The notes under the pieces: model-generated
Told to the model about the DNA's origin: nothing
Databases searched by the model: none
What the model saw: the letters and a program-made list of their open reading frames with translations, nothing else
Position numbers and translations under genes: made by a program
Shown: one piece after another, positions 1 to 28,491 of the stretch
How positions within the stretch are numbered: position 1 is the stretch's first letter
Layout of the letters: each line of letters starts with the position of its first letter
DNA from: Variovorax paradoxus
Lineage (GTDB): Bacteria; Pseudomonadota; Gammaproteobacteria; Burkholderiales; Burkholderiaceae_C
DNA: 64,000 bases
Direction of reading: 5' to 3'
Assembly: GCF_022009635.1 (NCBI RefSeq)
Contig: NZ_CP091716.1
Span: 2,619,001-2,683,000, forward strand

Positions 1-2
1 CC

Positions 3-5267: not shown

Positions 5268-5542
5268 CTCTTGAAAACCTGAGTGGTGTAGACAGCACGT
5301 TGCACAAAGAAATTGGCGACTTCAACCTGACGTACATGCTTCTGGCGCAGAAACTGGTGAAAGAGGATGGCGCGGTGGCCATGAGCCGCCTGGGCATCAG
5401 CAAAGATCTGGCGGCGCTCCTCTCCAACATGTCGTCCGCGCAGATCGTCAAGCTCGCTGAAACGAACCTGATGCTTTGCAGCTTCAGCCTGGAGAGCGCG
5501 ACGCTCGCGTCCGTGAGAGACATTCACTCAACCAGGAACTGA
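5264..5542 (+). CDS. flhD: Orphan FlhD-like transcriptional regulator, short C-terminus
   Basis: 92 residues that match FlhD along most of their length: FNLTYMLLAQKLVKEDGAVA, then RLGIS, then IVKLAETNLMLCSF. Cys72 sits where enterobacterial FlhD carries its inter-subunit disulfide Cys. FlhD normally pairs with FlhC as a heterohexameric activator of flagellar genes and, in some species, of other genes. Here no flhC or flagellar gene is in the window, and the protein ends ~15-25 residues earlier than usual. It is translationally coupled (ATGA) to the glycosyltransferase-like gene at the end of a type I secretion operon. Its 3' end overlaps the convergent halogenase gene by 15 bp. It may have a dedicated role in adhesin control. 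Confidence 0.8.
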   Translation: MTLENLSGVDSTLHKEIGDFNLTYMLLAQKLVKEDGAVAMSRLGISKDLAALLSNMSSAQIVKLAETNLMLCSFSLESATLASVRDIHSTRN

Positions 5543-7030: not shown

Positions 7031-7059
7031 AGGTATATGTCTTTTCGTCGGGACGCCCG

Positions 7060-10000
7060 TCAGACCAGCACGAGCTGGTGGTTGGCCAGCAGCGTGGCGA
7101 GGTCGGTGGTCACGCCATTGAGGGTGATAAGCGTCGTTGACGAATACGCACCGCCCGACCCGTCACGGTCGATGCTCAAAGTCGTGTTGCCGCCGCTGAC
7201 CGTCACGCTCAGGTAGTTGCCGATGGCATCCCCCGAATCGATGACGGCAACGCCGTTGATGTAGCGCGCGGCCCCGTCGGCGTCGGCGGTGTAGCCCACC
7301 AGCAGTTCCTTCAGATCGATGCGGTCCGCATTGGGCGTGGCCTCGACGGTTCCAACCTCGAACCCATTGACCGTGTCCGCGCCATTGCCGCCGGTGGCGT
7401 CGCTGGCCGAAAGCAGCTTGTAGAGCAGCGTGTCCCTGCCGCCACCCGTGAGGTTGAAGGTGTCGTTGCCGCCACGCCCCTCGAACTGGTTGTCCGCCGC
7501 GTTGTCGGTGAAGGTGTCCGCACCGTTACTACCCGCCAGGCCTTCGATGTTCCTGAAGGTCGCCGTGCCGAAGCCGGTGTTCTGCGCGCCGGTGTTGCTC
7601 AGGTCGATGGTGAGCGACGTGTTGTCGGCCAGTTTGTAGTCGACGATGTCCAGGCCGCCGGTATTGCTCCAGGCCTTGACGCCGGACACCATCACTGTGC
7701 CGCCGCCACCTTCGTACTTGTCATTGCCTTGGGTGGCGAAGAAGGTGTCGTTGTAGCCGGTGCCGACGATGCCGTTGGCGATGTTGGCATTGGCGACGTT
7801 GGTCCCGGATTCGGTGGTCAGCACAAAGGCGTGGTTCGCCTCGCCGGCCTTCAGGCCGGTCCATGCGGCATTGACCTGTTCGATGGCGTTGCCGCCGAGC
7901 TTGGCCAGACCACCCACATCGGCTGCCTGTCCGTTGGCAATGCGCAGGATTGCCAGCGTGTAAGTCTCTCTCGGATCGAGCCCGTAGAAGTCGACGATCG
8001 CGGAACTGTCGTTGGTCTGGTTGCCGGACTGCGGATTGATGATCTGGGTGGACACCAGCTTGCCCGACGAGTCGAACAGTTGCACGGTGTTGCCATACAG
8101 CGCGTTGATGCCTTCCGCATCGAGGATGCGGAAGTGCAGCGACGTGCCGTCTGCCACCGTGGTGGTATTGGTGATGAAGCGGGTGTTGCCTTTCTGGGTG
8201 AACGCCAGCAGGTCGCGGTCGCCGTCCCAGTCGATGTCGGCGGCAACGGCGCCGGTGACGGCATCGTCGGTCTCGAGGCGATGGTTCCAGACGCCGATCT
8301 CTTCCGTCCCCCCAAGCAGATTGGTCGTGACGAAATCGATATCAGTTCCCGAACTGTTGTTCGTGTAGAGGTTGATCGGTCCTCTATTGCCGTCTTTCGT
8401 CATGCCGCCGCCGGTGCCGAAACCTGGCAGCTCGATGACGTCCATCTTGCCGTCGCCGTTCCAGTCCACCGCGAGCGAGGCACCGCCTTGCAAAAGATCG
8501 CCAAGGAGGTACATGCCCGACGGCTTCTCTCCGACCGTTTGTTTGTCCTTCAGGCGAATCATCCCAAGACGACCGTGGCCATCGTTGAACAAGATACGGC
8601 TCTGATACTGCTCGTTGGGGGTTGCCCCGTAGCCGCGGCCCATGAACAGATCCATGTAGCCGTCGCCGTTGAAATCGGACCAGGTCATGGAGACGCCGTT
8701 GCCGGAGTACGGGTCATCGTCGAGGCGCTGGAAAGTCTTTTCTATGATCTGCGTGTTCTCCCAGGTACCGTCGCCCTTGTTGGTCGCGACGACCAGCCGA
8801 TACGCATCGCTGCTGTAGGGTTCGACAAAGGGTTTGTTGGCTGGACCTCCCATCTTCGTCAAACCCGCCGTCGCGTGATAGACGAGGTCGACCTTGCCGT
8901 CGTTATTCAGATCGACGCCTGACAGTTCCATGTCGAAAGTGGCATTGCCGGCGTTGGTTGGGGCCGATGCACCATAGGTCGCTGCCACGTCTTCCGTGTA
9001 GGCACCGTCCTTGACCATGCCGAGGATTTTTCCGTCCGTGTTGAGCACGATCTGGGAGTCGTATCCTCCTCCGCTTATGGCGTCGTTTGGCGTCTGGTCA
9101 CCATAGGCCAGGTCGACGAGGCCGTCGCCGGTCTTGTCGAAGGCCACCACGCCACCGAACCAGCTGTACGTGTTCGCGCTATCCGCCGTGAGCTTGTCTC
9201 CGTCCTCCTTGTCAGTGCCTCTGGTCACAGTCGATCCGCCAACCTGCACAGCCTTGTATTTGCTGCCATTGAAGAGGAAGGCCTGCTGGCCATCGTCGTA
9301 GGTGCTGTCTTCCGCGAACAGATCCATGTGCCCATCGCGGTTGAAGTCCATGAATGTGGCGTTCTGGACATAGTTAGGCCCCACGTATGCCGGATTGTCG
9401 GTAGGGGAATTGCTCGTCAGCTTGGTCTGCCCGAAGCTGCCCAGCGAGGCGCTGTCGGTTCCGTTGGCATCCAGCATCGTCTGGTTGGTGTGGATGCGCC
9501 ACATGCCGTTCTCACCGAGCGTGTAGGCGGTCGCCTTCTGGTTCGGATCGCTGGCGGCGGATCCGACCGTCACCGTCGGTGCCGCGGAGACGATCAGCTC
9601 GCCTGCGGTGTCGTCGGTTGACATCTGCACGCCGGCAGCATTCTTGACCACAGCCCTGACGTCGTAGGTCCCAAGGTCGACGGCTGACGGCACTTGCACA
9701 TACCAGGTGCTGTGCGTCGAATCGACGACCACCGCGCCATTGGCCGAGCTGTAGGTCTTGCCGGCGATGGTGACCTCGATGTACTGGCCGTTGGCCAGCT
9801 TGAAGGGCATGGAGCCGGTGACCAGCGGCGTGGTGTCGACGGTCGTCTGGCGGTTGACCGTGAGGGCGTAGTCGACGGTCAGGCTGAAGCTGCTCGACAT
9901 CGTGCCCTCGCTGCCCGCGGCACTGGCCACGGCGGCCCGATAGGTATGGGTCGAGCCGTCCGCGAGAACGCCGAGGTCGTAGGTCCAGGCAGTGCCGTTG

Positions 10001-13000
10001 ACCGTGGCGGTGCCCAGCAGCGTCGAGCCTTCATAGATGCGCACGACCTGGCCGAGGCTGAGCGGCGCTGTCAGTGAGCCGGCGAGCACCGGATCGGCGT
10101 CGTCAGTCGTGGTGCCGTTGCCGAAGGGCCCCTTGGCCGGGCCTGCATCGTCGATGTAGCCGGTGATGGCTGCGGTCATGCTGGGCATGGCGGTGTCGAC
10201 CTTGAAGGCCAGCGGGTTCGATTGCGGGCCTTCGTTGCCGGCCGCGTCGGCATTGCTCGCCGTCAGGCTGTGTGCGCCATTGGCCAGTTCCTTGCCGACC
10301 GGCGGTGTGAAGCTCCACTTGCCCGCGCTGTCGGCCGTCGCGGAGCCGATCAGCACGCCGTTGTCGTAGATCCTGACGGTGCCGTTCGGCTCCGCGCCGG
10401 AACCCGTGAAATCGGGGCGGGCATCGTTTGTCGTGCTGCCCGGCGTGATCGACCCGGTGATGGGCGCCACGTCGTCTATGGCACCATCGACCGAAGGCTG
10501 AGCGGTGGGCGCCGTCTGGTCGACAGTGAGCACCAAGGCGCCGGAAGTAGCACCCAGGTTGCCCCGCCCGTCTTCGACGCGGGCGGTATAGGCATAAGTG
10601 ATACCGTCGGCCAGACTCGCGTCCTGGAAGGTCCAGGTCGAAGCCCCGGTCATGGTGGCGGTGCCGAGGCGGATGTCGTCGCGATAGACCACTACGACCT
10701 CGCCCAAGCCCAGGGAGCCAGCGAGCGTACCGTTGAGCTGCGGCGTCGAGTCGTTGGTCATGGTGCCCGAAGCGAAGGTACCTTGCTGCGGGTCCTGGTT
10801 GTCGGTGTAGTTCGCGATCACCACCGTCTGGCTGAGCGTGGGCGCGGCCCGGTTGTCGCTCGAGTTCAACACGACCTTCACACCTTGCTGCACCCAGACG
10901 TCACCCAGCGTGTTGGTCGTCGGCAGCGCGCTGTTGTGATAGACGGTGTAGTTCACTCCGCCGATGCTCGTGGCTCCCGTGCTGCTCCAGCGGCCCGCTT
11001 CCTGGTGCAACTGCACCGTGTCGCCGGCGTCGCCGGTCACGCGCAGGTGGCCTTGGCCCGTGCCGTGGCCGGCGCCTGTGCTGCTCTGCTGGTTGAGAAC
11101 GTCGGAGAGTCGCAACTTCAGGACGTTGCCCGTGTTGCCGGCACCAGTGCCCAGGTCGAAGTTCTCGAAGCCCTGCACTTTAAGGCCGAGCCGCGGCAGG
11201 TCGAGCGTGATGTGCGAACCGTCGACCACCAGCGTGTCGATGCCCAGGCCACCATCCACGCGGACCACGCCCGTGATCTCGTTGATGCGGATGCTGTCGT
11301 TCCCCGCGCCGCCATACGCGCTGTCACCCGCCCGCACGCCGGTGATGGTGTCGTTGCCTGCGCCGCCGGAGAGCCTGTCCCTACCGGCCGTTGCCGCAAT
11401 GACGTCGTCGCCAACGGTCAGCAGGTTGGTGAAATTGAATGCGCTGGAATAGACCACCTCCAGGTAGCCCGCGGCCGGCGCTCCCGTCGTGCCGCGATAG
11501 GAGGAACCGAGTGCCAGGTCGGCTTGGCCGTCGCCGTTCAGGTCGGACAGCGCCACGTTCACGCCGAGCATCGATCCGGAGCTCGCGCTGCCGTTCTGGC
11601 CGTATGTCAGGTTGCCGCTGTTCGCCGACTTGTCGCCCCAGTAGGTGGCCGCGACACTCATGGTGCCGGAATAGCCGCCTTGCTGGCCGTACACGATATA
11701 GACCGCGCCGTTGTTCACCATGCCTTTCACATCGGCCAGCGGTGCGCCGATGGCGATGTCGTCGATGCCGTCGCCGTTGAAGTCGCCCACCGAGGTCCCG
11801 TTGCCGAACATTGCATCGGGCGTGCTGTCCGATGCGGTGATGACGAAGCCGTCGGAAGCCGAGAGGCTGGCGAGGTTGAGGTTGGAGGTCGCGCCGCCGA
11901 CCTTGCCGTAAACAACATAGACGCGGCCCGGTCCCTTCTGCTCTCCCGCGTCGGGCCCGAATTGCGGCGAACCGATGATCATGTCCGCGATGCCGTCCCC
12001 ATTGACGTCACCCGAGGAGATGGGCATGCCGGTATTCGACAGATACCCGTATGGCTCCGGGTCGATGTAGGTGCCCAGGTACTGGTTTCGCTCCTCGCCA
12101 TAGACGCGGAAGCCATTGGTGATGTTCACGTAGTCGGTCTGCAGGCTGTAGTCCTGCGGGAAACCTCTCGCCGTGCCGTAGATCACCTGGATGGCGCCAG
12201 CATTTTCGATGTTGCCGACGGGATTACGGGCGTTGTACATGCTGTAGGCGAAGTCGGAGTAGCCATCGCCGTTGATGTCCCCGATGTTCATCACGTTGTC
12301 GGGATAGCCGTTCGTGTTGTCGTTGTAGATGACTGTGTGTGGCCGTGAGCTTTCCACTGACGAGTTACGGCTGTCCGAGACATAGCTCGCCGGACTCGAT
12401 CCGGTGAAGCCGACGTAGTAGTTGCCCCAGTCTGCCGAGCCCGCCGCTCCGGCGTGGCCGTAGAGGATGGCCGTGCCCGAGGAGCCGGTGCCCCGCTGCC
12501 AGTCCTGCATGATGATGTCGGCATACCCGTCGCCGTTCACGTCCACGAGCGCGCCGCCCGCGCCGAACCAGGTCGATCCGCCCTCGCGCTGCACGATGGC
12601 AACGCCGTCGCTGTTACCGCCGGACGAAATGATGGTGCGGACATCCACGTTCACCGGCGCAGAACCGGCACTCTCGGAAGACCTCCCGAAGATGACCCAG
12701 GCGCTGTTGAGGTTGTCGTCGTAGAGGATCACGTCCGAGTAGCCATCGCCATTGACGTCACCATAGCCCTGGACGGCGGTCAGGATGTTGGAGTCGGAGA
12801 TATCCCCCGACGTGAATATCTTCAGTCCGTCGGTCCCGGGCAGGTTTGAAACATCGCTCAGGTCCGGCAACCCTTGCTTGCTGCCGTAAAGAATGTTGAC
12901 GCTCCATTTGTTCGCGGCGCGAGCGGCTGCCGAGCCATGTGGTGCCACGACCGCGAAATCGTTGTAGCCGTCGCCGTTGAAGTCGCCGATGGCCTGAACG

Positions 13001-19000: not shown

Positions 19001-22000
19001 GTGGTGTCGACATTCACGACGAAGACGCCAGAACGCGGGCTTTCATTGCCCACGGGGTCGATGGCGGTGGCGGTGAGCTGGTGAGCGCCTTCGGCCAGCG
19101 GCGTGGTCGGCGTGAAGCTCCAGCTGCCGTCGGGCTTGACCGTGGTGCTGCCGATGGGGCTGGTGTTGTCGTAGACCTTGATGACATCGCCGGGCGTTGC
19201 GCCCTCACCGGAGAGTGTGGGCGTGGTGTCGTCGCTGGCGCCGCCGGTGGTGAGCGGGCCTTGCACCGAGCCGACGTCGTCCGTGGCCTTGCCAATGACG
19301 GGCACGTTCGGTGCGGTCGTGTCGACGGTCAGCGAGATCGAAGCCTCGCCCTTGGTGCCTGCCGCGTTCACCGCTGTGGCGGTGTACTTGTGTGCGCCTT
19401 CGGATTGCGCCGGCAGTGTGAGACTCCAGTTGCCGTTGGCGTCTGCCGTGGTGGAGCCCAGAACCGTCGAGTTCTCCGTGACGGTCACGATGGCGCCGGT
19501 CGTGGCCTTGCCTACGAGGGTCGGCGTGGTGTCGTCGGTGACGGCGCCCGGGGCGAGATTGCCTTGCTTGCTGCCCTGGTCGTCCACCGCATGGCCGACG
19601 CTGACGACGACGCCGGAGGTGTCGACCGTGAACGCAAGAGGCGCACTGGCTGCGCTGGTATTGCCTGCGGCGTCGGTGAGCGTGTGCGTGATGCTGTGTG
19701 CGCCATCGCCCAGCGGCGTGCTGAGAGCGAGGCTCCACTTGCCATCGCTCGTTACAGCAGCGCTGCCGACGAGGGTGGCGCCGTCGTACATCTTGACGAT
19801 GTCGCCCGCCTCGGCACCGCTGCCGCTGAAAGTGGGCGAGGCGTCGTCGGTGGAACCACCGGCCGGGATCGTGCCGGTAACGGCGCCCTGGTCGTCCGTG
19901 GCCACGACCGTGCCCGGCGTGGCCGGTGGCATGGTGTCGAGCACGATCGGATAGGCACCCGTGGCCGGGCTGGCCTGACCCGCGCCGTCGACTGCGATGG
20001 CGCTCAGGTTCTTGACGCCGTCGGCGCCCAGCGGGCTGGTGGTCACGCTCCATGTGCCGTTGGCGGCCACGCTGGTCGAACCGACGGCCACGCCGTCGGC
20101 GTACACGGTCACGACCGTGCCGACGGTGCCGGTACCACTGAGCGTGGGCGTGCTGTCGTCGGTGCTGGCGTTCTGGGCGATGCTGCCGGTCACGCTGCCC
20201 TTGTCATCGCTCACGCCGGTGATGGCGGGAGCCGCAGGTGCGTCACCCAGCAGGGTGAAGGTGGATGCCGGCGTGATGGCGCTGACGTTGCCGGCCGCAT
20301 CGACAGCCTGCGCGGTGAGGCTGTGCGGGCCGGTGGCCAGGGGCAGCGCGGGCGTGAAGCGCCACGTGCCGTCGGCGTTGACGGCCGTGCTGCCGATCAG
20401 TTTGCCGTTGTCGTAGACGTTGATGCTCGAGACTTGCGCGGGATCGGCCTTGCCGGTGTATTCCGGCTTGCTGTCGTCGGTCTGCGCGCCGGAAGCGATG
20501 GGGCCTTGCACTGTGCCCACGTCGTCGAGTACCTGGATCTTGGATGCGTCCAGGGCCGCGGGCGCCGTGGTGTCGACGTTGACCGTGAAGGCACCGGAGG
20601 GCGGGCTCTCGTTACCGGCCGGGTCGACGGCCGTGGTGGTGAGCCGATGCGAGCCTTCGGCCAGCGGCGTGGTCGGGGTGAAGCTCCAGGTGCCGTCTGG
20701 CTGCACCGTGGTGCTGCCGATGGGGCTGGCGTTGTCGTAGACCTTGATGACGTCGCCCGGCGTTGCGCCGCTGCCGGTCAGCGTGGGCGTGGTGTCGTCG
20801 GTGACACCACCGCTCGCAAGAGGGCCCTGCACCGAGCCCATGTTGTCGGATGCGGAGCCGATGGCCGGGACGGCCGGCGCGCTCTTGTCGACAATGACGG
20901 CGAGTGCCGGAGCCTGCTTGCTCTCGTTGCCCGCCGCGTCGGTCAGCGTGTAGCTGATCCGGTGCTTGCCTTCGGGCAATGCCGTGCTCGGCGTGAGCGT
21001 GCCGGTGGCCGGGTCATAGGTCGAGGCGATCTTGGCGCCGTCGACATACAGCGAAGGCGTGAGGCCGCTCGGTACCGTGCCGATGTTGATGCCTGGTGTG
21101 GTGTCGTCGGTCGTCGAGGCGCTGCTGTTCGGGCTCTGGATGGCGCCGACGTTGTCTGCGTAGCCAGTTGCCGCAGTCGGCGTGGATGGAGCGTTCGTGT
21201 TGATGGCGACGGCGAGCGCGGGCGCCTGCTTGCTTTCGTTGCCGGCGGTGTCGGTCAGCGTGTAGCCGATCTGGTGCGCGCCTTCGGCGAGCGGAACGTT
21301 GGGCGTCAGCGTGCCGGCGACCGGGTCATAGGTCGAGGCGACCTTGTTGCCATCGACATACAGCGATGGCGTGAGGCCAGCGGGTACCGCGCCGATATTC
21401 AGTGCTGGCGTGGTGTCGTCGGTGATCTTGGCGGTGCTCGTCGGGCTCTGGACGGAGCCGACGTTGTCGGCATAGCCCGTTGCAGCTGACGGAGTGGGTG
21501 GTGGTGTCGTGTCGACGTTGACGACGAAGGAGCCCGAGGGCTTGCTCTCGTTGCCCACGGGGTCGATGGCGGTGGCGGTGAGCTGGTGCGCACCTTCGGC
21601 CAGCGGCGTGGTCGGGGTGAAGCTCCAGGTGCCGTCGGGCTTGACCGTGGTGCTGCCGATGGGGCTGGCGTTGTCGTAGATCTTGATGACATCGCCGGGC
21701 GTTGCGCCTTCGCCGGAGAGGGTGGGCGTGGTGTCGTCGCTGGCGCCGCCGGTGGTGAGCGGGCCTTGCACCGAGCCGACGTCGTCCGTGGCTTTGCCGA
21801 TGGTAGGTACGTTCGGCGCGGTCGTGTCGACGATCATAGAGATCGAAGCTTCGCCCTTGGTGCCGGCCGCGTTCACCGCGGTGGCGGTGTACTTGTGCGC
21901 ACCTTCCGATTGCGCCGGCAGCATGAGGCTCCAGTTGCCGTTGGCGTCCGCTGTGGTGGAGCCCAGAACAGTCGAGTTCTCCGTGATGGTCACGACAGCA

Positions 22001-25000
22001 CCGGCCGTTGCCGTGCCTACGAGCGTGGGCGTGGTGTCGTCGGTGGCGGCGCCCGGAGCTAGGTTGCCTTGCTTGCCGCCCTGATCGTCCACCGCATGGC
22101 CGACGCTGACGACGACACCGGAGGTGTCGACCGAGAAGGCCAGCGGGGCGCTGGCTGCGCTGGTGTTGCCCGCCGCGTCGGTGAGCGTGTGCGTGATGCT
22201 GTGCGCACCCTGGGCCAGAGGCTTATTGGGCGTAAGGCTCCAGGTGCCGTCGGCGTTGACCGCGGTGCTGCCGATGAGCGCGGCGCCGTCGTACAGCTTG
22301 ACGACGTCTCCGGCCTTGGCGCCGCTGCCGCTGAAGGCGGGCGAGGCGTCGTCGGTGGAGCCGCCTGGGGCGATCGGCCCGGTCACAGCCCCTTGGTCAT
22401 CCGTGGCTGTCACGGTCGTGGGCGTAGCAGGTGCGGTGGTGTCCAGCACGATCGGGTAGTCACCGGTAGCGGGGCTGGCCTGGCCAGCGCCATCGACGGC
22501 AATGGCCTTGAGGTTCTTGACGCCATCACTGCCCAGCGGACTGGTGGTCACGCTCCAGGTGCCGTTGGCGGCCACGCTGGTCGAGCCCACGGCGACGCCG
22601 TCGGCGTACACGGTCACGACCGTGCCGACGGTCCCGGTGCCGCTGAGTGTGGGCGTGTTGTCGTCGGTGCTGGCGTTCTGGGCGATGCTGCCGGTCACGC
22701 TGCCCTTGTCGTCGCTCACGCCGGTGATGGCGGGGGCCGCAGGTGCGTCGCCTAGCAGTGTGAAGGTCGAGGCCGGCGTGATGGCGCTGACGTTGCCGGC
22801 CGCATCGACGGCCCGTGCGGTGAGGCTGTGCGTGCCCGTGGCCAGTGGCAGCATGGGCGTGAAGCGCCAGGTGCCGTCGGCATTGACCTCCGTGCTGCCC
22901 AGCAGCACGCCGCTGTCGTAGACATTCACACTCGCCACTTGCGCGGGGTCCGCCTTGCCTGCATAGGTCGGCTTGCTGTCGTCGGTCTGCGCGCCTGAAG
23001 CGAGAGGGCCCTGCGTCGCGCCCACGTCGTCCAGCACTTGCAGCGCGGAGGCGTCCAGCGCCGGGGGCGGCGTGGTGTCCATGTTGACTGCGAGCGCGCC
23101 CGAACGCGCGCTCTCGTTGCCGGCCGCATCGGTCAGCGTGTAGCTGAGCCGGTGCGAGCCTTCGGTCAGCGGTGCATTCGGCGTCAGCGTGCCGGCGACC
23201 GGGTCATAGGTTGCGGCGAACTTGATGCCGTCGACATACAGCGCGGGCGTCGTGCCTACGGGCACCGTGCCGATGTTGAGGCCGGGCATGGTGTCGTCGG
23301 TGGTCGGGGCGGTGCTGGCCGGGTTCCGGACGGTGCCGACGTTGTCGGCATAGCTCGTCGGTGCGGCTGGCGCGACCGGGGCAGTCTTGTCGACGGTGAC
23401 GGTGAGCGCCGGCGCCGGCTTGCTCTCGTTGCCGGCCGTGTCGGTCAGCGTGTAGCTGATGCGGTGCGTGCCTTCGGCGAGCGGAGCATCGGGCGTCAGC
23501 GTGCCGAGGGCCGGGTCATAGGTCGCGGCGACTTTGACGTCGTCCACATACAGAGACGGCGTCGAGCCGGCTGGCACCGTGCCGATGTTGAGTCCGGGTG
23601 TGGTGTCGTCCGTGGTCGGCTCGGTGCTCGTCTGGCTCTGGATGGTGCCGACATTGTCGGCATAGCCCGTCGGCGCGCCCGGCGGGGGCAGAGCGACCGT
23701 GTTGACGATGACGGAGAGTGCGGGGGCCTGCTTGCTCTCGTTGCCGGCGGCGTCGGTCAGCGTGTAGCCGATCTGGTGCGAGCCTTCGGCGAGCGGAACG
23801 TTGGGCGTCAGCGTGCCTGCGACCGGGTCATAGGTCGAGGCGACCTTGGTGCCATCGACATACAGCGATGGCGTCAGGCCCGTGGGCACCGTGCCGATGT
23901 TGATGCCGGGCGTGGTGTCGTCGGTGATCTTGGCGGTACTCGTCGGGCTCTGGACGGAGCCGACGTTGTCGGCATAGCCGGTTGCCGCCGCCGGCGTGGC
24001 CGGCGCGATGGTGTCCACGTTGATCACGAAGTCGCTCGACGGCTTGCTCTCGTTGCCCACGGGATCCATGGCCGTGGCGGTGAGCCTGTGCGTGCCTTCG
24101 GCCAGCGGCGTGGTCGGCGTGAAGCTCCAGCTGCCATCGGCCTTGACCGTGGTGCTGCCGATGGCGCTGTCGTTGTCGTAGATCTTGATGACATCGCCCG
24201 CCGTCGCGCCGTTGCCGGTGAGCGTGGGTGTGGTGTCGTCGCTTGCGCCTCCGTTCACCAATTGGCCCTGCACCGCACCCACGTCGTCCGTGGCGTTGCC
24301 GATGGCAGGAATTTTGGGCGGCGTCGTGTCGATGGTCAGGCCGAGAACGGCCTGACCGGTGGTGCCGGCGGCGTTTACCGCGGTGGCTTTGTATTCGTGC
24401 GCGCCCTCGGCCTGCTCCGAAAGCGTGAGGCTCCAGTTGCCGTTCGCGTCCGCCGTGGCGGAGCCGAGAACGGCAGCACCCTCGGTGACTGTCACGACCG
24501 CGCCGGCCGTGGCCTTGCCGGCGAGTGTTGGCGTGGTGTCGTTGGTGAGCCCGGCGATCTGCCTGGCCCCGCGTGCTGGCGGTCGTTCCAGGGATTGCCG
24601 GACGCTGACGATGACGTCGGAGGTGTCGATCGTGAAGGTCAGCGGTGCGCTGGCGGCGCTGGTGTTGCCGGCGGCGTCGGTGACCGTTTGCGTGATGCTG
24701 TGCGCCCCCGCGCCCAGCGGCGCGCCGGGTGTGACGCTCCAGCCGCCGTCGGTCGCGACCGTGGCGCTGCCGATGAGGGTGGCGCCGTCGTACAACCTGA
24801 CGGTGTCGCCGGCCTTGACGCCGCTGCCGCTGAAGGTGGGCGAGACATCGTCGGTGGTGTCGCCGGACACGATCGGGCCTTGCACCGCGCCGACCTTGTC
24901 CGCCGCCGCGATCATGCTCGGGGTGGAAGGTGGCGTGGTGTCGAGCACGATCGGGTAGATGCCCGTGGCGGCGCTGGTCTGGCCCGCGCCGTCGGCCGCG

Positions 25001-28000
25001 ACGGCGCTCAGGTTCTTGACGCCGTCGGCGCCCAACGGATTGGTTGTCACGCTCCAGGTGCCGTTGGCGGCCACGCTGGCCGAGCCGACGGCCACGCCGT
25101 CGGCATACACGGTCACGACCGTGCCGACGGTGCCGGTGCCGCTGAGCGTCGGCGTGTTGTCGTCGGTGCTGGCGTCCTTGGCGATGTTGCCGGTCACGCT
25201 GCCCCTGTTGTCGCTCACGCCGGTGATGGCCGGTGCAGCGGGCGCGGTGCCCAGCAGTGTGAAGGTCGAGGCGGGCGTGGTGGCACTGACGTTGCCGGCC
25301 GAATCGACGGCCTGCGCGGTGAGGCTGTGCGGGCCGGTGTCCAGAGGCAATGTGGGCTCGAAGCGCCAGGTGCCGTCGGCGTTGACGGCCGTGCTGCCGA
25401 TCAGTTTGCCGTTGTCGTAGACGTTGATGCTGGCCACCTGCGCGGGGTCGGCCTTCCCGGCGTATGTCGGCTTGCTGTCGTCGGTCTGCGCGCCGGAGGC
25501 GATGGGGCCTTGAATGGCGCCCACGTCGTCGAGCACCTGGATCAGCGAAGCGTTCAGCTGCGGGGGCGGCGTGATGTCCACGTTCACCGTGAAGTCGCCC
25601 GAACGCGGGCTTTCGTTGCCCGCCGCATCGACGGCCGACGTGCTGAGGCGATGGAGGCCTTCCGTCAGCGGTGTGGTCGGCGTGAAGCTCCAGCTGCCGT
25701 CGGGCTGCACCGTCGTGCTGCCGATCGGGCTGGCGTTGTCGTAGACCTTGATGACGTCGCCCGGCGTCGCGCCGCTGCCGGTCAGCGTGGGCGTGGTGTC
25801 GTCGGTGGCGCTGCCGCTCGTGAGCGGGCCTTGCACCGAACCGACGTCGTCAGTGGCCTTGCCGATGGCGGGAGCGTTAGGCGCCGTCGTGTCGATGGTC
25901 AACGAGAGGGAGGCTTCGCCCTTCGTGCCGGCCGCGTTGACCGCGGTGGCCGTGTACTTGTGCGCGCCTTCGGCCTGCGCTGGCAGCGTGAGGCTCCAGT
26001 TGCCGTTGGCATCCGCCGTGGTGGAGCCGACAACGGTCGAGTTTTCCGTGACGGTCACGATGGCCCCGGCCGTCGCCGTGCCCACGAGGGTCGGCGTGGT
26101 GTCGTCGGTGACTGCGCCCGAGGCGAGGTTGCCTTGCTTGCTGCCTTGGTCATCGACCGCATGGCCGACGCTGACGACGACATTCGATGTGTCGACCGTG
26201 AAGGTCAGGGGGGCGCTGGCGGCACTGGTGTTGCCCGCTGCATCGGTGAGCGTGTGCGTGATGCTGTGCGCGCCCTGGCCCAGCGGCTTCTCGGGCGAGA
26301 GGCTCCAGCTGCCGTCGGCATTGACTGCGGTGCTGCCGATGAGGGTGGCGCCGTCGTACAGCTTGACGGTGTCGCCGGCCTTGGCGCCACTGCCGCTGAA
26401 GGCGGGCGAGGCGTCGTCTGTGGAGCCTCCGGCGGCGATCGCGCCGGTGACTGCGCCCTGATCGTCCGTGGCCACGACGGTGGCCGGTTTCGTCGGCGCC
26501 GTGGTGTCCAACACGATCGGGTAGTCACCCGTGGCCGGGCTTGCCTGCCCCGCGCCGTCGACTGCGATGGCCTTGAGCTTCTTGACGCCATCGCCACTCA
26601 GCGGGCTGGTGGTCACGCTCCACGTGCCGTTGGCGGCGACGCTGGCCGAGCCGACGGCCACGTCGTCGGCGTACACCGTCACGACCGTGCCGACGGTACC
26701 GGTGCCGCTCAGCGTGGGGGTGTTGTCGTCGGTGCTGGCGTCCTTGGCGATGTTGCCGGTGATGCTGCCCTTGTTGTCGCTCACGCCGGTGATGGCCGGC
26801 GCGGCGGGGGCATCGCCCAGCAGCGTGAAGGTGGATGCGGGTGTGATCGCGCTGATGTTGCCGGCTGCATCGACGGCCTGCGCGGTGAAACTGTGCGCGC
26901 CCGTGGCCAGGGGCAGCGCGGGCGTGAAGCGCCAGCTGCCGTCGGCGTTCACTGCCGTGCTGCCGATCAGCTTGCCGTTGTCGTAGACGTTGATGCTCGA
27001 CACCTGGGCGGGGTCGGTCTTGCCGATGTATTCCGGCTTGCTGTCGTCGGTTTGTGCGCCAGCGGCAATGGGGCCTCGGACAGCGCCGATGTCGTCCAGC
27101 ACCTGGATGCTGGAGGCATCCAGCGCCGCAGGCGGCGTGGTGTCCACGTTGACCGTGAAGGCGGCCGAGGGCCTGCTTTCGTTGCCTGCCGGGTCGATGG
27201 CCGTGGTGGTGAGACGGTGCGCGCCCTCTGCCAGCGGCCTGGCTGGCGTGAAGCTCCAACTGCCGTCGGCCTTGACCGTCGTGCTGCCGATGGCACTGCC
27301 GTTGTCGTAGACCTTGATGACATCGCCCGCCGTCGCGCCGCTGCCGGTGAGCGTGGGCGTGGTGTCGTCGGTGACACCGCCACTGGCGAGCGGACCCTGC
27401 ACTGGGCCCATGTTGTCCGAAGCTGCGCCGATGGCCGGCGCGCCCGGTGCGGTCGTGTCGAGTCGGACGCTTCCGGTTGTCACTGGCATGGAGACGTTGC
27501 CGGCCAGGTCGCGGCTCGTCGCGCTGACATTGATCGCGCCGCCTTCCACCGGATTGGGAAACGATGCGTTGACAAAACCGTTGGCGACATCCGCCGCTGT
27601 CAGCGTGATGCTGGACGAGACCGTGCCGGCAGCCAGAGTGATGACGTCGCCCACAGCCGCACCCGACACGAGCGTGATCTTCGCGGTCACATCGGCGCCT
27701 TTCTCGCTGGCGTTGATGAAGCCGTCCTTGTTGGCGTCGTTGACGATGGCGATGCCGATGACAGGCGGCTTGCCGTCGACAGCGGCTGTGGTTTCAGGGC
27801 TCGTGTTGCCGGCTGCATCGGTGGCAACGACGTGCAGCACCGTGCCGTCCTTCGGCGGAGCCGTTGGCGTGATGCTGTACGCGCCGTCGGCCGCGACAGT
27901 GGCGCTGCCGATGACGTTGCCCGAGTCGTCCTTGATCGTGACCATGGAGCCGACTTCGGCCATGCCCGTGATCAGGCTGCCGTTGGTCGGATTGACGGTG

Positions 28001-28491
28001 GGGGCGGCTGGAGACGTCTTGTTGCTCGGCGTCTGCGGAGGGGGCGAGGAAAAGAGGAAGGACTGCAGGTTGTCGCCGCCGCCACCGCTGAAGGCCGCGC
28101 CTGCGGCCAAACCACCGCCGACGAGAAAAGGCAGCAAGCCGAGATCGAAGTCCTGGTGCAGCAGCAAGGGCTCGATGGAGTCGATATTCGAATATTCGAC
28201 GGCCAGATCGCCCTGGTTTTCACCGATTTCGGCCAGCCACAGACCCTCTTGGTTGTCGCTCAGTACAAGGTTGCTGCTGTGGCCATTGAAGGGCGTGAAG
28301 AAATCATGAACGGTGACGACCTCGCCTGAAACGGCGGTAATGATCAGGTCATTGCCGACGCGGCGCATGCCTTTGATCCGGTCATTCGACAGGCCGATGC
28401 GGATAACCGAGGCCGCCTTGAGTGAAATCTCGTTCACCAGGATTTGGCTGACTTTCCCACCACGCTTGGCAATTACTTCCAGCGAAAACAT
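7060..28491 (-). CDS. Giant BapA/LapA-like Ig-repeat adhesin, type I secreted
   Basis: 7143 residues in one uninterrupted frame. Order from the N-terminus: BapA-prefix-like domain (1-~120), Gly/Ala-rich stretch (~125-139), about 50 Ig-like modules of ~85-105 residues (~160-5150), seven FG-GAP repeats (~5151-5688), an RTX-like GGAGND patch (~5700-5740), further Ig-like modules, a second FG-GAP/VCBS region (~6318-6778), and a type I secretion C-terminus with RTX-like motifs from ~6904. There is no Sec signal, as expected for type I export. The start has AGGGA upstream. It is probably a surface adhesin for biofilm formation, exported by the system encoded at 3-3977. No LapD or LapG gene is in the window. 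The long open frames on the + strand here are composition shadows. Confidence 0.95.
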   Translation of the reverse strand: MFSLEVIAKRGGKVSQILVNEISLKAASVIRIGLSNDRIKGMRRVGNDLIITAVSGEVVTVHDFFTPFNGHSSNLVLSDNQEGLWLAEIGENQGDLAVEYSNIDSIEPLLLHQDFDLGLLPFLVGGGLAAGAAFSGGGGDNLQSFLFSSPPPQTPSNKTSPAAPTVNPTNGSLITGMAEVGSMVTIKDDSGNVIGSATVAADGAYSITPTAPPKDGTVLHVVATDAAGNTSPETTAAVDGKPPVIGIAIVNDANKDGFINASEKGADVTAKITLVSGAAVGDVITLAAGTVSSSITLTAADVANGFVNASFPNPVEGGAINVSATSRDLAGNVSMPVTTGSVRLDTTAPGAPAIGAASDNMGPVQGPLASGGVTDDTTPTLTGSGATAGDVIKVYDNGSAIGSTTVKADGSWSFTPARPLAEGAHRLTTTAIDPAGNESRPSAAFTVNVDTTPPAALDASSIQVLDDIGAVRGPIAAGAQTDDSKPEYIGKTDPAQVSSINVYDNGKLIGSTAVNADGSWRFTPALPLATGAHSFTAQAVDAAGNISAITPASTFTLLGDAPAAPAITGVSDNKGSITGNIAKDASTDDNTPTLSGTGTVGTVVTVYADDVAVGSASVAANGTWSVTTSPLSGDGVKKLKAIAVDGAGQASPATGDYPIVLDTTAPTKPATVVATDDQGAVTGAIAAGGSTDDASPAFSGSGAKAGDTVKLYDGATLIGSTAVNADGSWSLSPEKPLGQGAHSITHTLTDAAGNTSAASAPLTFTVDTSNVVVSVGHAVDDQGSKQGNLASGAVTDDTTPTLVGTATAGAIVTVTENSTVVGSTTADANGNWSLTLPAQAEGAHKYTATAVNAAGTKGEASLSLTIDTTAPNAPAIGKATDDVGSVQGPLTSGSATDDTTPTLTGSGATPGDVIKVYDNASPIGSTTVQPDGSWSFTPTTPLTEGLHRLSTSAVDAAGNESPRSGDFTVNVDITPPPQLNASLIQVLDDVGAIQGPIASGAQTDDSKPTYAGKADPAQVASINVYDNGKLIGSTAVNADGTWRFEPTLPLDTGPHSLTAQAVDSAGNVSATTPASTFTLLGTAPAAPAITGVSDNRGSVTGNIAKDASTDDNTPTLSGTGTVGTVVTVYADGVAVGSASVAANGTWSVTTNPLGADGVKNLSAVAADGAGQTSAATGIYPIVLDTTPPSTPSMIAAADKVGAVQGPIVSGDTTDDVSPTFSGSGVKAGDTVRLYDGATLIGSATVATDGGWSVTPGAPLGAGAHSITQTVTDAAGNTSAASAPLTFTIDTSDVIVSVRQSLERPPARGARQIAGLTNDTTPTLAGKATAGAVVTVTEGAAVLGSATADANGNWSLTLSEQAEGAHEYKATAVNAAGTTGQAVLGLTIDTTPPKIPAIGNATDDVGAVQGQLVNGGASDDTTPTLTGNGATAGDVIKIYDNDSAIGSTTVKADGSWSFTPTTPLAEGTHRLTATAMDPVGNESKPSSDFVINVDTIAPATPAAATGYADNVGSVQSPTSTAKITDDTTPGINIGTVPTGLTPSLYVDGTKVASTYDPVAGTLTPNVPLAEGSHQIGYTLTDAAGNESKQAPALSVIVNTVALPPPGAPTGYADNVGTIQSQTSTEPTTDDTTPGLNIGTVPAGSTPSLYVDDVKVAATYDPALGTLTPDAPLAEGTHRISYTLTDTAGNESKPAPALTVTVDKTAPVAPAAPTSYADNVGTVRNPASTAPTTDDTMPGLNIGTVPVGTTPALYVDGIKFAATYDPVAGTLTPNAPLTEGSHRLSYTLTDAAGNESARSGALAVNMDTTPPPALDASALQVLDDVGATQGPLASGAQTDDSKPTYAGKADPAQVASVNVYDSGVLLGSTEVNADGTWRFTPMLPLATGTHSLTARAVDAAGNVSAITPASTFTLLGDAPAAPAITGVSDDKGSVTGSIAQNASTDDNTPTLSGTGTVGTVVTVYADGVAVGSTSVAANGTWSVTTSPLGSDGVKNLKAIAVDGAGQASPATGDYPIVLDTTAPATPTTVTATDDQGAVTGPIAPGGSTDDASPAFSGSGAKAGDVVKLYDGAALIGSTAVNADGTWSLTPNKPLAQGAHSITHTLTDAAGNTSAASAPLAFSVDTSGVVVSVGHAVDDQGGKQGNLAPGAATDDTTPTLVGTATAGAVVTITENSTVLGSTTADANGNWSLMLPAQSEGAHKYTATAVNAAGTKGEASISMIVDTTAPNVPTIGKATDDVGSVQGPLTTGGASDDTTPTLSGEGATPGDVIKIYDNASPIGSTTVKPDGTWSFTPTTPLAEGAHQLTATAIDPVGNESKPSGSFVVNVDTTPPPTPSAATGYADNVGSVQSPTSTAKITDDTTPALNIGAVPAGLTPSLYVDGNKVASTYDPVAGTLTPNVPLAEGAHQIGYTLTDTAGNESKQAPALAVAINTNAPSTPTAATGYADNVGAIQSPNSSASTTDDTTPGINIGTVPSGLTPSLYVDGAKIASTYDPATGTLTPSTALPEGKHRISYTLTDAAGNESKQAPALAVIVDKSAPAVPAIGSASDNMGSVQGPLASGGVTDDTTPTLTGSGATPGDVIKVYDNASPIGSTTVQPDGTWSFTPTTPLAEGSHRLTTTAVDPAGNESPPSGAFTVNVDTTAPAALDASKIQVLDDVGTVQGPIASGAQTDDSKPEYTGKADPAQVSSINVYDNGKLIGSTAVNADGTWRFTPALPLATGPHSLTAQAVDAAGNVSAITPASTFTLLGDAPAAPAITGVSDDKGSVTGSIAQNASTDDSTPTLSGTGTVGTVVTVYADGVAVGSTSVAANGTWSVTTSPLGADGVKNLSAIAVDGAGQASPATGAYPIVLDTMPPATPGTVVATDDQGAVTGTIPAGGSTDDASPTFSGSGAEAGDIVKMYDGATLVGSAAVTSDGKWSLALSTPLGDGAHSITHTLTDAAGNTSAASAPLAFTVDTSGVVVSVGHAVDDQGSKQGNLAPGAVTDDTTPTLVGKATTGAIVTVTENSTVLGSTTADANGNWSLTLPAQSEGAHKYTATAVNAAGTKGEASISLTVDTTAPNVPVIGKATDDVGSVQGPLTTGGASDDTTPTLSGEGATPGDVIKVYDNTSPIGSTTVKPDGSWSFTPTTPLAEGAHQLTATAIDPVGNESPRSGVFVVNVDTTAPATPTAATGYADNVGSVQSPTSTAKVTDDTTPGINIGTVPAGLTPSLYVDGTKVAATYDPVAGTLTPNTPLAEGAHQIGYTLTDAAGNESKQAPALSVTVNTIAVPPPAAPTGYADNVGTIQSTASTASTTDDATPGFNIGKVPSGLTPSLYVDDIKVAATYDPVTSTLTPTTALTEGEHRISYTLTDAAGNESKQTPALTVTVDQTAPAAPSTPTSYADNAGTIQSTTSTAAITDDATPGINIGKVEPGSRPTLYVDGVKVAATYDTLNGTLTPNAPLTEGTHRISYTLSDAAGNESAHSGALVISVDTTAPAALDASKIQVLDDVGAVQGQLASGAQTDDSKPEYVGKADPAQVASVNVYDNGKLIGSTAVAADGTWRFTPALPLATGPHSLTAEAVDAAGNVSAITPASTFTLLGDRPAAPAITGVSDDKGSVTGSIAQNASTDDNTPTLSGTGTVGTVVTVYADDVAVGSTSVSANGTWSVTTSPLGADGLKNLKAIAVDGAGQSSPATGLYPIVLDTTAPTTPATVVATDDQGAVTGSIPAGGSTDDASPAFSGSGAKAGDVVKLYDGAALIGSTAVNADGTWSLTPEKPLVQGAHSITHTLTDAAGNTSAASAPLTFTVDTSGVVVSVSHAVDNQGSKQGNLAPGAATDDTTPTLVGTATAGAIVTVTENSTVLGSTTADANGNWSLTPPVQAEGAHKYTATAVNAAGTKGEATLALSIDTTAPSVPTIAKATDDVGSVQGPLTSGSATDDTTPTLSGSGATPGDVIKVYDNGSAIGSTTVQPDGSWSFTPTTPLAEGAHQLTATAIDPVGNESKPSGSYVVNIDTTAPIDKATLSAIGTDTGTSNSDFVTSDRTLVATITVDAAIEPGATVQISLDSGKTWNNATLVGGNTYQFDNTAVSLSDGSHTVLTRVVDAAGNAGASSSQVVVIDTSAPTAENAVAITAYIDDVAPNTGEYGSGTSTNDTTPTLKGTVAGLKTGDVVQIYEGNVLLGTATVSGSAWTFATPALTDGSAHSYTAVIADAAGNKGTASAAFSLTVDTTAPTQAVTIASYTDDIGTNRGDFASGTNTDDTAPVLNGTLSAAIGATDVVRIYEGTTLLGTATVTGTSWTFAVPALASGSTHGYTAAIADAAGNVGAASPVFTLTVDTTPPAQNVTIAAYTDDVGTNRGDFASGTTTDDTTPVLRGTLSEAIGATDVVRIYEGTTLLGTATVTGTTWTFATPALSSGSTHTYTAVVADAAGNQGASSSGFTLTVSTSAPAQTTSITAYTDNVGTNQGDFASGTSTDDTTPVLRGELSAAIGAADTVRIYEGTTLLGTATVTGTRWSFATPTLADGSTHTYTAVVTDAAGNEGVPSSRFTLTVDTTAPTQTVAITSYLDNQDPQQGTFTSGSTTNDTTPQLNGTLAGTLGTGEVVAVYRDGVRLGAATMTGAATWTFQDTGLVNGTGYSYTARVEDAAGNRGAASAAFTLTIDQTSPPAGLVIDGAMDDVDPVTGPIISGSTTNDARPELKGAGAEPNGTVRIYDNSMLIGSTTADSTGKWNFTPAAGKELAEGPHRLTASSLDAAGNEGPQSAPLSFTVDTVAPSTAPSIDSIMDETAPVTGPITAGGTTNETRPALKGAGAEPNGTVRVYDNGTLIGSATADGTGKWSFTPTAGKELANGPHSLTTSSVDAAGNEGPKSTPLTFTVDTVAPPVATLSLGNYSDSFPAAGTLAANQSSDHNSTDNTFDLVLIGADASAASYEVSTDGGTSWKTTTAAQSNLSDGKYLFRATLTDAAGNSTAAANVIEVTVDRTSPALDLQRVGGSLVAGKAEAGALVAIDVGNDGSIEVSVTADANGNWTWTPSTPIAANTTVSAVAYDLAGNASSKGSQAADTTPPVVTIQKTDGNRFSGTTSDADTPMVSPTATKPITVTLSVDKNADGVIDYVLPFTATVTADGAWSIDASAAPVNIGAIVTAVAQDYNGNRSAPATVTVGGGTSKISGSASNDNFGYDVQAIGDFNGDGYNDFAVVAPHGSAAARAANKWSVNILYGSKQGLPDLSDVSNLPGTDGLKIFTSGDISDSNILTAVQGYGDVNGDGYSDVILYDDNLNSAWVIFGRSSESAGSAPVNVDVRTIISSGGNSDGVAIVQREGGSTWFGAGGALVDVNGDGYADIIMQDWQRGTGSSGTAILYGHAGAAGSADWGNYYVGFTGSSPASYVSDSRNSSVESSRPHTVIYNDNTNGYPDNVMNIGDINGDGYSDFAYSMYNARNPVGNIENAGAIQVIYGTARGFPQDYSLQTDYVNITNGFRVYGEERNQYLGTYIDPEPYGYLSNTGMPISSGDVNGDGIADMIIGSPQFGPDAGEQKGPGRVYVVYGKVGGATSNLNLASLSASDGFVITASDSTPDAMFGNGTSVGDFNGDGIDDIAIGAPLADVKGMVNNGAVYIVYGQQGGYSGTMSVAATYWGDKSANSGNLTYGQNGSASSGSMLGVNVALSDLNGDGQADLALGSSYRGTTGAPAAGYLEVVYSSAFNFTNLLTVGDDVIAATAGRDRLSGGAGNDTITGVRAGDSAYGGAGNDSIRINEITGVVRVDGGLGIDTLVVDGSHITLDLPRLGLKVQGFENFDLGTGAGNTGNVLKLRLSDVLNQQSSTGAGHGTGQGHLRVTGDAGDTVQLHQEAGRWSSTGATSIGGVNYTVYHNSALPTTNTLGDVWVQQGVKVVLNSSDNRAAPTLSQTVVIANYTDNQDPQQGTFASGTMTNDSTPQLNGTLAGSLGLGEVVVVYRDDIRLGTATMTGASTWTFQDASLADGITYAYTARVEDGRGNLGATSGALVLTVDQTAPTAQPSVDGAIDDVAPITGSITPGSTTNDARPDFTGSGAEPNGTVRIYDNGVLIGSATADSAGKWSFTPPVGKELANGAHSLTASNADAAGNEGPQSNPLAFKVDTAMPSMTAAITGYIDDAGPAKGPFGNGTTTDDADPVLAGSLTAPLSLGQVVRIYEGSTLLGTATVNGTAWTYDLGVLADGSTHTYRAAVASAAGSEGTMSSSFSLTVDYALTVNRQTTVDTTPLVTGSMPFKLANGQYIEVTIAGKTYSSANGAVVVDSTHSTWYVQVPSAVDLGTYDVRAVVKNAAGVQMSTDDTAGELIVSAAPTVTVGSAASDPNQKATAYTLGENGMWRIHTNQTMLDANGTDSASLGSFGQTKLTSNSPTDNPAYVGPNYVQNATFMDFNRDGHMDLFAEDSTYDDGQQAFLFNGSKYKAVQVGGSTVTRGTDKEDGDKLTADSANTYSWFGGVVAFDKTGDGLVDLAYGDQTPNDAISGGGYDSQIVLNTDGKILGMVKDGAYTEDVAATYGASAPTNAGNATFDMELSGVDLNNDGKVDLVYHATAGLTKMGGPANKPFVEPYSSDAYRLVVATNKGDGTWENTQIIEKTFQRLDDDPYSGNGVSMTWSDFNGDGYMDLFMGRGYGATPNEQYQSRILFNDGHGRLGMIRLKDKQTVGEKPSGMYLLGDLLQGGASLAVDWNGDGKMDVIELPGFGTGGGMTKDGNRGPINLYTNNSSGTDIDFVTTNLLGGTEEIGVWNHRLETDDAVTGAVAADIDWDGDRDLLAFTQKGNTRFITNTTTVADGTSLHFRILDAEGINALYGNTVQLFDSSGKLVSTQIINPQSGNQTNDSSAIVDFYGLDPRETYTLAILRIANGQAADVGGLAKLGGNAIEQVNAAWTGLKAGEANHAFVLTTESGTNVANANIANGIVGTGYNDTFFATQGNDKYEGGGGTVMVSGVKAWSNTGGLDIVDYKLADNTSLTIDLSNTGAQNTGFGTATFRNIEGLAGSNGADTFTDNAADNQFEGRGGNDTFNLTGGGRDTLLYKLLSASDATGGNGADTVNGFEVGTVEATPNADRIDLKELLVGYTADADGAARYINGVAVIDSGDAIGNYLSVTVSGGNTTLSIDRDGSGGAYSSTTLITLNGVTTDLATLLANHQLVLV
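8160..9540 (-). other. Second FG-GAP/VCBS-like region of the adhesin
   Basis: Six D-x-x-x-D-G-x-x-D loops are visible (DFNRDGHMD, DKTGDGLVD, DLNNDGKVD, DFNGDGYMD, DWNGDGKMD, DIDWDGDRD). They are more divergent than those of the first propeller. The segment sits between the last Ig-like modules and the type I secretion C-terminus, so it is near the end that leaves the cell first. Confidence 0.8.
11430..13040 (-). other. FG-GAP / integrin-alpha-like seven-blade propeller segment of the adhesin
   Basis: Seven calcium-loop motifs of the form D-x-N-G-D-G-x-x-D are seen in order: DFNGDGYND, DVNGDGYSD, DVNGDGYAD, DINGDGYSD, DVNGDGIAD, DFNGDGIDD and DLNGDGQAD. Seven repeats is the number for a closed beta-propeller of the integrin alpha type. 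The RTX-like patch GGAGNDTITG ... GGAGNDSI follows directly (DNA ~11270-11400). Confidence 0.85.
16790..27450 (-). repeat. Higher-order tandem array of Ig-like modules inside the adhesin
   Basis: Six module types recur in fixed order. By their first motif they are A (ATDDVGSVQG), B (IQVLDDVGAVQG), C (ITGVSDDKGS), D (VVATDDQGAVTG), E (VSVGHAVDDQGS) and F (GYADNVGSVQS). Reading from the N-terminus gives two blocks of A-B-C-D-E (~1565 bp each), then three eight-module blocks of ~2510 bp: A-F-F-F-B-C-D-E, A-F-F-A-B-C-D-E and A-F-F-F-B-C-D-E. The copies are very similar, especially C and E. Most non-F modules carry one Trp in a G-x-W motif. Confidence 0.9.

Follow-up and report, generated by a model that had tools for sequence, protein, structure and literature searches.

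The window analysed here, a stretch of 64,000 nucleotides from Variovorax paradoxus, contains the genes of a type I secretion system (T1SS) and, on the opposite strand, a giant adhesin gene followed by a gene of the flavin-dependent halogenase family (HAL). Its features are the following.

2..578, plus strand: C-terminal part of a TolC-like outer-membrane protein whose gene enters from upstream of the window (named from its sequence and its position before the ABC and HlyD genes)
575..2692, plus strand: T1SS permease/ATPase, LssB type (TIGR03375, 822.9 bits)
2664..3977, plus strand: T1SS periplasmic adaptor, HlyD type (TIGR01843, 324.2 bits)
3987..5267, plus strand: GT426, a TPR and GT-A-like protein, found in adhesin loci with and without halogenase
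5264..5542, plus strand: FlhD-like regulator (PF05247, 87.8 bits), convergent, overlapping the 3' end of HAL by 15 bp
5528..7030, minus strand: HAL, flavin-dependent (Trp) halogenase family protein, open reading frame of 500 aa, ATG start
7031..7059, minus strand: 29-bp gap between adhesin stop and HAL start; the strong hairpin of relatives is absent here
7060..28491, minus strand: BapA-type Ig-like/FG-GAP adhesin, 7143 aa, ATG start, with T1SS C-terminal target domain
7063..10074, minus strand: last 1004 aa of the adhesin, forming the C-terminal module whose occurrence tracks HAL
7072..7377, minus strand: T1SS C-terminal target domain of the adhesin (TIGR03661, 37.3 bits)
28126..28491, minus strand: BapA_N prefix-like domain of the adhesin (PF22783)

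The protein immediately before HAL is the adhesin. An earlier note on this DNA had described an intact FAD motif, a WMWQIP motif and Lys80 in a gene starting 29 bp after the adhesin stop on the same strand. This description was confirmed: the frames 5528-7030 and 7060-28491 are open, the gap spans 7031-7059 and the motifs are present.

The FlhD-like regulator gene (5264-5542) also overlaps the stop of GT426; no such regulator was found within 10-12 kb past GT426 in three relatives. GT426, with TPR and a glycogenin-like GT-A domain, lies after the T1SS genes in Variovorax adhesin loci with or without a halogenase. It has no match in Pfam or NCBIfam, homologues are present in Acinetobacter, Pseudomonas and Burkholderia, and it is possibly an adhesin glycosyltransferase. 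The 19 proteins scanned between 29 and 62 kb comprise a phosphopantetheinyl transferase (37.8 kb), MFS, FAD oxidase, AMP-binding enzyme, KDO transferase and Ada/AlkA proteins, or match no family. HAL as part of a natural-product cluster in the window was rejected, there being no NRPS or PKS among these 19 proteins. RiPP-modifying enzymes were not found among the window proteins scanned with Pfam (other loci were scanned in part).

The adhesin

The BapA-type assignment follows from a BapA_N prefix (PF22783, 91.4 bits; NF033677, 51.6 bits), tandem Ig-like repeats with a T1SS target domain, and linked T1SS genes at 575-3977. The family scan covered the two end pieces of the adhesin and detected Big_13, Big_6, FG-GAP repeats and the target domain, the last well above its cut-off of 17.6.

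The adhesin contains 61 tryptophans, and 35 of 60 successive spacings measure 95-115 residues. One conserved Trp per Ig-like module had been taken as a pointer to the adhesin as substrate. This argument did not hold, nor did the idea that Trp-rich repeats are a special trait of HAL-linked adhesins, since adhesins of the same genus without HAL are alike: they too have the spacing of about 100 residues, and three of them (full-length or nearly) have a Trp density of 0.92-0.97% versus 0.85% in the window adhesin. Other HAL-linked sequences have 0.96-1.69%, but these are mostly C-terminal parts, which are Trp-richer. The density in a 3568-aa adhesin of the window's genome is 0.48%.

The halogenase

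HAL matches PF04820 with 376.3 bits (cut-off 21) and carries the motifs GGGTAG (14-19), K80, GWMWQIP (274-280), E345 and E348, in which we take the FAD, WxWxIP, catalytic Lys and catalytic Glu positions to be those of PrnA and RebH. In an alignment of 43 sequences, K80 is Lys in 42, W275 and W277 are Trp in all 43 and E348 is Glu in 40. The WxWxIP motif suppresses monooxygenation in flavin-dependent halogenases. The overall fold is that of flavin-dependent tryptophan halogenases, with 25-30% identity to known members in structural alignments. H99, F101 and F451 of HAL align to H109, F111 and W466 of RebH. The aromatic-cage positions are partially kept (H99, F101, Y442, F451), and the part that holds the Trp backbone in RebH is less alike by eye.

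At E<=1e-20, 2665 proteins match HAL. The dN/dS ratio is 0.06-0.19 among five copies and 0.22-0.28 in comparisons involving Variovorax sp. 679; HAL is under purifying selection. Among copies of the same subfamily, P0013 has a broken GxGxxG FAD motif and P0010 (Variovorax sp. 375MFSha3.1) has Asp in place of Glu345.

Transcription of the pair

Between 5000 and 7400 of the window no promoter-like site was found, and the single terminator-like site lies inside the HAL gene. The 29-bp gap holds a 4-bp stem only (z -0.4). All 11 other adjacent loci tested, of which five come from Variovorax, have a strong hairpin after the adhesin stop (z -2.3 to -5.5; L113, L119 and L120, with an intervening gene or another orientation, were omitted). 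The hairpin tail is clearly T-rich in the enterobacterial and Stenoxybacter loci and in the relative G089, and is a weaker pyrimidine-rich stretch elsewhere. Because the hairpin is absent in the window strain, adhesin and HAL are, judging by the sequence, probably more tightly cotranscribed there than usual. The adhesin-hairpin-HAL arrangement of the relatives resembles that of hlyA-hlyB, where a leaky terminator lets the substrate exceed the accessory gene products. The single transcript proposed in the earlier note is thus plausible in this strain, with neither a promoter-like site nor a gap hairpin, and doubtful as a general rule, given the hairpin in all 11 other loci.

Conservation within Variovorax

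HAL orthologues of 79-90% identity occur in six other genomes, all of the same genus, among 150 genomes including the window's own; this count omits full-length matches of 30-37% in two other genera and short matches elsewhere. An adhesin C-terminus lies immediately before HAL on the same strand in five of the six, and the contig of the sixth ends inside HAL. Downstream of HAL, TolC-like and ABC genes follow on the same strand in all six. The usual gene order is adhesin-HAL-TolC-ABC-HlyD-GT426.

The window's genome departs from this order: its secretion block runs opposite to adhesin-HAL and comes after a second adhesin (3568 aa) that starts outside the window. This second adhesin (L087, G000:C1:2605500-2619200) is 74% identical over the last ~1000 residues and occupies the place of adhesin-HAL in relatives. 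Its position before the inverted T1SS block is a rearrangement absent from the six relatives. A third adhesin of this genome (6613 aa) has its own TolC-ABC-HlyD-GT426 genes and no HAL.

Occurrence beyond the genus

A scan of genome contigs for HAL found 40 loci, of which 35 reach at least 46% identity. Annotation of the flanks of these 35 by open reading frames and BLAST placed a related adhesin beside HAL in 13, nine of which are outside Variovorax; several of the other 22 stretches are cut by contig ends. The 13 loci belong to four Variovorax, a Bartonella MAG, Enterobacillus, an Enterobacteriaceae MAG, strain LSJC7, Acinetobacter populi, Ca. A. avistercoris, Stenoxybacter, Pluralibacter and Tenebrionibacter. 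The two Acinetobacter loci differ in the orientation of the pair. An OmpA-family gene lies between adhesin and HAL in Enterobacillus and between HAL and the ABC gene in LSJC7; in Pluralibacter and Tenebrionibacter a gene of similar size, known by size alone, takes the latter place. The adjacency needs five changes on the HAL tree, with taxa mixed.

The few neighbours scanned in the other 22 stretches encode mostly ordinary proteins (topoisomerase, UbiA, porin, two-component genes, RecQ, UPRTase). Polyketide-type genes adjoin one Paraburkholderia copy (L127), and rhizobial HAL relatives (48-50%) lie between nif genes and nodD2 (NGR234) or between nif genes and an IS element (S. numidicum). The halogenase relatives beside nif genes on Sinorhizobium symbiosis plasmids are L142 and L143 (48-50%); in four further Sinorhizobium plasmid records the HAL match spans an IS5-family transposase gene. 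A partial scan of neighbours in the adhesin-linked loci revealed no biosynthetic partner.

The names of several bacteria that carry HAL refer to insects (Trabulsiella odontotermitis, Enterobacillus tribolii, Tenebrionibacter intestinalis, Limnobaculum allomyrinae), hinting at gut attachment; the ant-gut Tokpelaia (PMC5156944) is a further insect-related case.

A C-terminal adhesin module tracks HAL

Over their last 1000 residues, HAL-linked adhesins share 49-60% identity with the window adhesin across Beta-, Gamma- and Alphaproteobacteria, versus 38-39% for three adhesins of the same genus without HAL, one of which is encoded in the window's own genome. Two HAL-linked sequences fall below this range: that of strain 679 (28%, the end alone conserved) and, at the A. 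populi locus, the second adhesin (36%). Among the 150 relatives, the 1004-aa module is present at 77% or more in five genomes (the window's own, G089, G060, G049 and G009), all with HAL; the HAL genomes that lack the full module are strain 679 (G016, last 132 residues only) and the fragmented G010.

The module was also searched in 22 genomes, mostly with non-adjacent HAL loci. It is present at 50% or more in nine: G151, G152, G153, G155, G161, G537 (partial), G538 (in pieces), G539 and G540, with G161 and G540 representing adjacent loci. The others hold a 44% module (G162), end pieces only (G536, G541, G164), a marginal match (G165) or none (eight genomes). Away from HAL, the module is also found in Diaphorobacter, Comamonas, Limnobaculum and Trabulsiella.

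In Enterobacterales, HAL (45% identity or more) and module were sought in the same 198 genomes. HAL is present in ten; two more genomes have homologues of 34-35%, which were not counted, and no module. Some match to the module occurs in 48 genomes, a near-full-length match (39% or more) in 27 and a match of at least 50% in 13. All ten HAL genomes carry the module, nine of them at 50% or more, versus 27 of 198 overall (hypergeometric 4e-10, Fisher 6.5e-12, p-values that ignore relatedness). The six genomes with non-adjacent genes all carry it as well (p 1.5e-6, again ignoring relatedness); the two genes lie on different contigs in five of these and about 2.5 Mb or more apart in G567. The module is found at 50% or more without HAL in four Enterobacterales genomes (G657 at 60%, G671, G663, G696) and in three of Acinetobacter (G779, G820, G763).

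Eight of 175 Acinetobacter genomes have the module (E<=1e-30). It accompanies both HAL genes of core type (55% identity) and one of eight of the 45-48% type, but was found with neither of the two 40-41% homologues, nor with any of three that are broken, partial or at 30%; taken together, 3 of 12 near-complete homologues (40% or more) co-occur with it. Since the module tracks core-type HAL and rarely the more distant types, the coupling belongs to the core HAL clade and fails for more distant homologues.

On the HAL tree with 34 labelled rows, the module label needs three changes versus 9.6 in shuffles, although near relatives alone can cluster in this way; three changes fit one gain and two losses of the module. 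The label of L114 was taken from its adjacent adhesin without a module search and those of L102-L104 from matching genomes, and strain 679 was left unlabelled. All 23 rows labelled with the module keep the equivalents of Lys80 and Glu348. The catalytic Lys and Glu are also kept in 10 of 11 rows labelled without it, the exception being Ensifer 6670 with Arg and Gln. In a copy on a rhizobial plasmid, Asp replaces the catalytic Glu.

BapA_N exceeds its cut-off in 11 of 19 HAL genomes, four of them chosen as adjacent, versus 1 of 369 class genomes (the window's own), eight of which have any match at E<=0.001. The domain is common in some genera (25 of the 150 relatives), so the module was preferred as genome control. 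HAL follows one adhesin subtype: adhesins without HAL, with similar T1SS and GT426 neighbours, are found in the window's genome, G046 and G017.

Strain 679 is a single same-genus case in which the module is gone: of its adhesin 1065 residues are visible, with likeness to the module confined to the last ~130. There the enzyme looks inactivated, because catalytic Lys80 is replaced by Asn, in an ungapped and unambiguous stretch of the alignment, and dN/dS is raised. This natural loss supports coupling; as it says nothing on the substrate, it left our estimate of the adhesin as substrate unchanged.

The adjacency was thus searched in other genomes, as the earlier note had advised, and is conserved in five of six same-genus genomes and nine loci of other taxa. 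Chance neighbourhood, which that note had named as the alternative, is ruled out by the adjacency in the genus and well outside close relatives, together with the co-occurrence of the genes when apart. The association is a real, widely conserved partnership between a HAL subfamily and one adhesin module.

Relation to known systems

Trp and indole halogenases of known role sit in natural-product clusters. PrnA, RebH, PyrH, BrvH, Xcc4156 and AbeH share with HAL the Pfam family, the fold, the FAD motif, WxWxIP and the catalytic Lys/Glu; they differ in sequence (25-30% identity), and the core of the HAL subfamily sits with adhesins. Giant adhesins of the BapA/SiiE/Blp type share with the window adhesin BapA_N, Ig-like repeats, the T1SS target domain and the T1SS genes; we know of no halogenase in SiiE or BapA operons.

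A locus like that of the window, with a Trp halogenase gene directly downstream of an Ig-like T1SS-type protein of >6000 aa, was described in 2016 for Ca. Tokpelaia hoelldoblerii, a member of the ant-gut Rhizobiales; the gene organisation is conserved in Bartonella tamiae, and the pair was interpreted as possible antibiotic chemistry (PMC5156944). In the portion of that report available to us, the account concerns Rhizobiales only, with no module coupling and no wider survey. The statement in the earlier note that no such system had been described was therefore nearly right, the adjacency alone having been reported for two Rhizobiales (PMC5156944). No other description of it was found in the literature searched, which includes few subscription papers, and terms for adhesins or large proteins were not found in the available part of PMC12615548.

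Within RiPPs, SrpI halogenates Trp in leader-guided peptides and proteins, and MibH also acts on peptidyl Trp (PMC10286304, as far as available); peptidyl-Trp halogenation is likewise described for ChlH in the excerpts available. MibH, SrpI and ChlH belong to the enzyme family of HAL. Their substrates are short precursor peptides, whereas the candidate of HAL is a giant secreted adhesin.

What HAL may act on

An intact enzyme, purifying selection, a conserved neighbourhood and genome-wide coupling to the module are observed, and we consider it very likely that HAL and this class of adhesin are functionally coupled. That the adhesin itself is the substrate we hold at slightly less than an even chance. 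The core idea of the earlier note, a halogenase acting on the adhesin, is still the leading hypothesis; the note's Trp argument and its single transcript are weakened.

T1SS substrates are unfolded in the cytosol and exported C-terminus first. On the leading hypothesis, HAL would be an active flavin-dependent halogenase at the service of one class of BapA-type adhesins. It would dock on the C-terminal module, which may be a docking site by analogy to the SrpI leader, and would halogenate aromatic Trp or Tyr side chains while the adhesin is in the cytosol, its Ca2+-stabilised repeats still unfolded and accessible. The modified adhesin would then leave through the neighbouring T1SS, C-terminus first, and might be stickier or more resistant to oxidation or proteolysis. 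Catalysis, substrate, docking, timing and benefit are all steps that we infer.

In favour of this reading, besides the intact enzyme and the coupling to the module, peptidyl-Trp halogenation by the enzyme family of HAL is established for RiPPs. Several points speak against it. The C-terminus leaves first in type I secretion, with less time for modification; the module occurs without HAL in the seven Enterobacterales and Acinetobacter genomes named above; module-less homologues mostly keep the catalytic residues, with rhizobial ones in nif/nod regions; and, besides the like density and spacing of Trp in adhesins without HAL, no Trp or Tyr column is exclusive to HAL. In detail, 28 Trp/Tyr columns are conserved in 80% or more of the 21 modules from HAL genomes, and none of them is exclusive versus 20 modules of HAL-less adhesins. 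The comparison set includes the third adhesin of the window's genome and excludes the close HAL-less Acinetobacter modules G779, G820 and G763; the counts omit seven secondary or weaker modules of HAL genomes (including G162 and G683) and the 3568-aa adhesin. The best columns, Y6477 (19/21 versus 3/20) and Y7067 (20/21 versus 5/20), are both confounded with relatedness. W6263, W6444, Y6398, Y6463, Y6477 and others had appeared as HAL-specific targets with four comparison rows and were dropped with 20 modules; W6263 proved to be an alignment artefact. Sequence conservation does not reveal the target, if this is the adhesin.

Rather unlikely in our view, though the main competitor to be weighed, is that HAL produces a small halogenated compound (halo-tryptophan, halo-indole or a derivative) that the cell needs in the life phase in which it needs the adhesin (attachment, biofilm, host gut), the genes being kept together without contact of their products. 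The closest solved relatives, among them RebH, PrnA and BrvH, act on free Trp or indoles; these structural matches and the alignment of the RebH residues H109, F111 and W466 to HAL H99, F101 and F451 favour this view, as do the distant homologues that live without the module, near polyketide-type genes (L127) or nif/nod genes. It fits poorly with HAL following one adhesin subtype and not adhesins or T1SS generally, and with the lack of a biosynthetic partner in the partial neighbour scan of the adhesin-linked loci. Improbable, too, is a HAL that does not halogenate and is a flavin monooxygenase or redox relative, oxidising aromatic residues or controlling redox during adhesin export. To our knowledge no activity has been measured for the HAL subfamily, the position after the catalytic Glu is Ala349 in 40 of 43 aligned sequences where RebH and PrnA have Ser, and a copy with a broken FAD motif (P0013) exists; yet the equivalents of the catalytic Lys and Glu and the WxWxIP motif are nearly invariant. 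Hitch-hiking of a functionless association in one transferred operon is very improbable. The five changes of adjacency on a tree of mixed taxa fit transfer, but HAL is under purifying selection, the coupling persists where the genes are apart, and the module label needs 3 changes rather than the 9.6 of shuffles, a figure that clustering of near relatives alone can lower.

Natural-product pathways and, more recently, short peptides have been the known settings of halogenases with this fold, and very many homologues named tryptophan halogenase have no known substrate. Genome evidence links the HAL subfamily to a defined adhesin module, so that a single mass-spectrometry experiment could address the substrate question. 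We tentatively propose, as a possibility still short of probable, a so far unrecognised post-translational modification system in which the C-terminal module guides a flavin-dependent halogenase that adds chlorine or bromine to aromatic residues of a giant bacterial adhesin ahead of its type I export. The system would operate in alpha-, beta- and gammaproteobacterial lineages, of which several are associated with insect guts. Animals have halogenated structural proteins. If the adhesin is indeed modified, we would know of no earlier bacterial surface adhesin halogenated by an enzyme, and this one would be a bacterial counterpart of those animal proteins.
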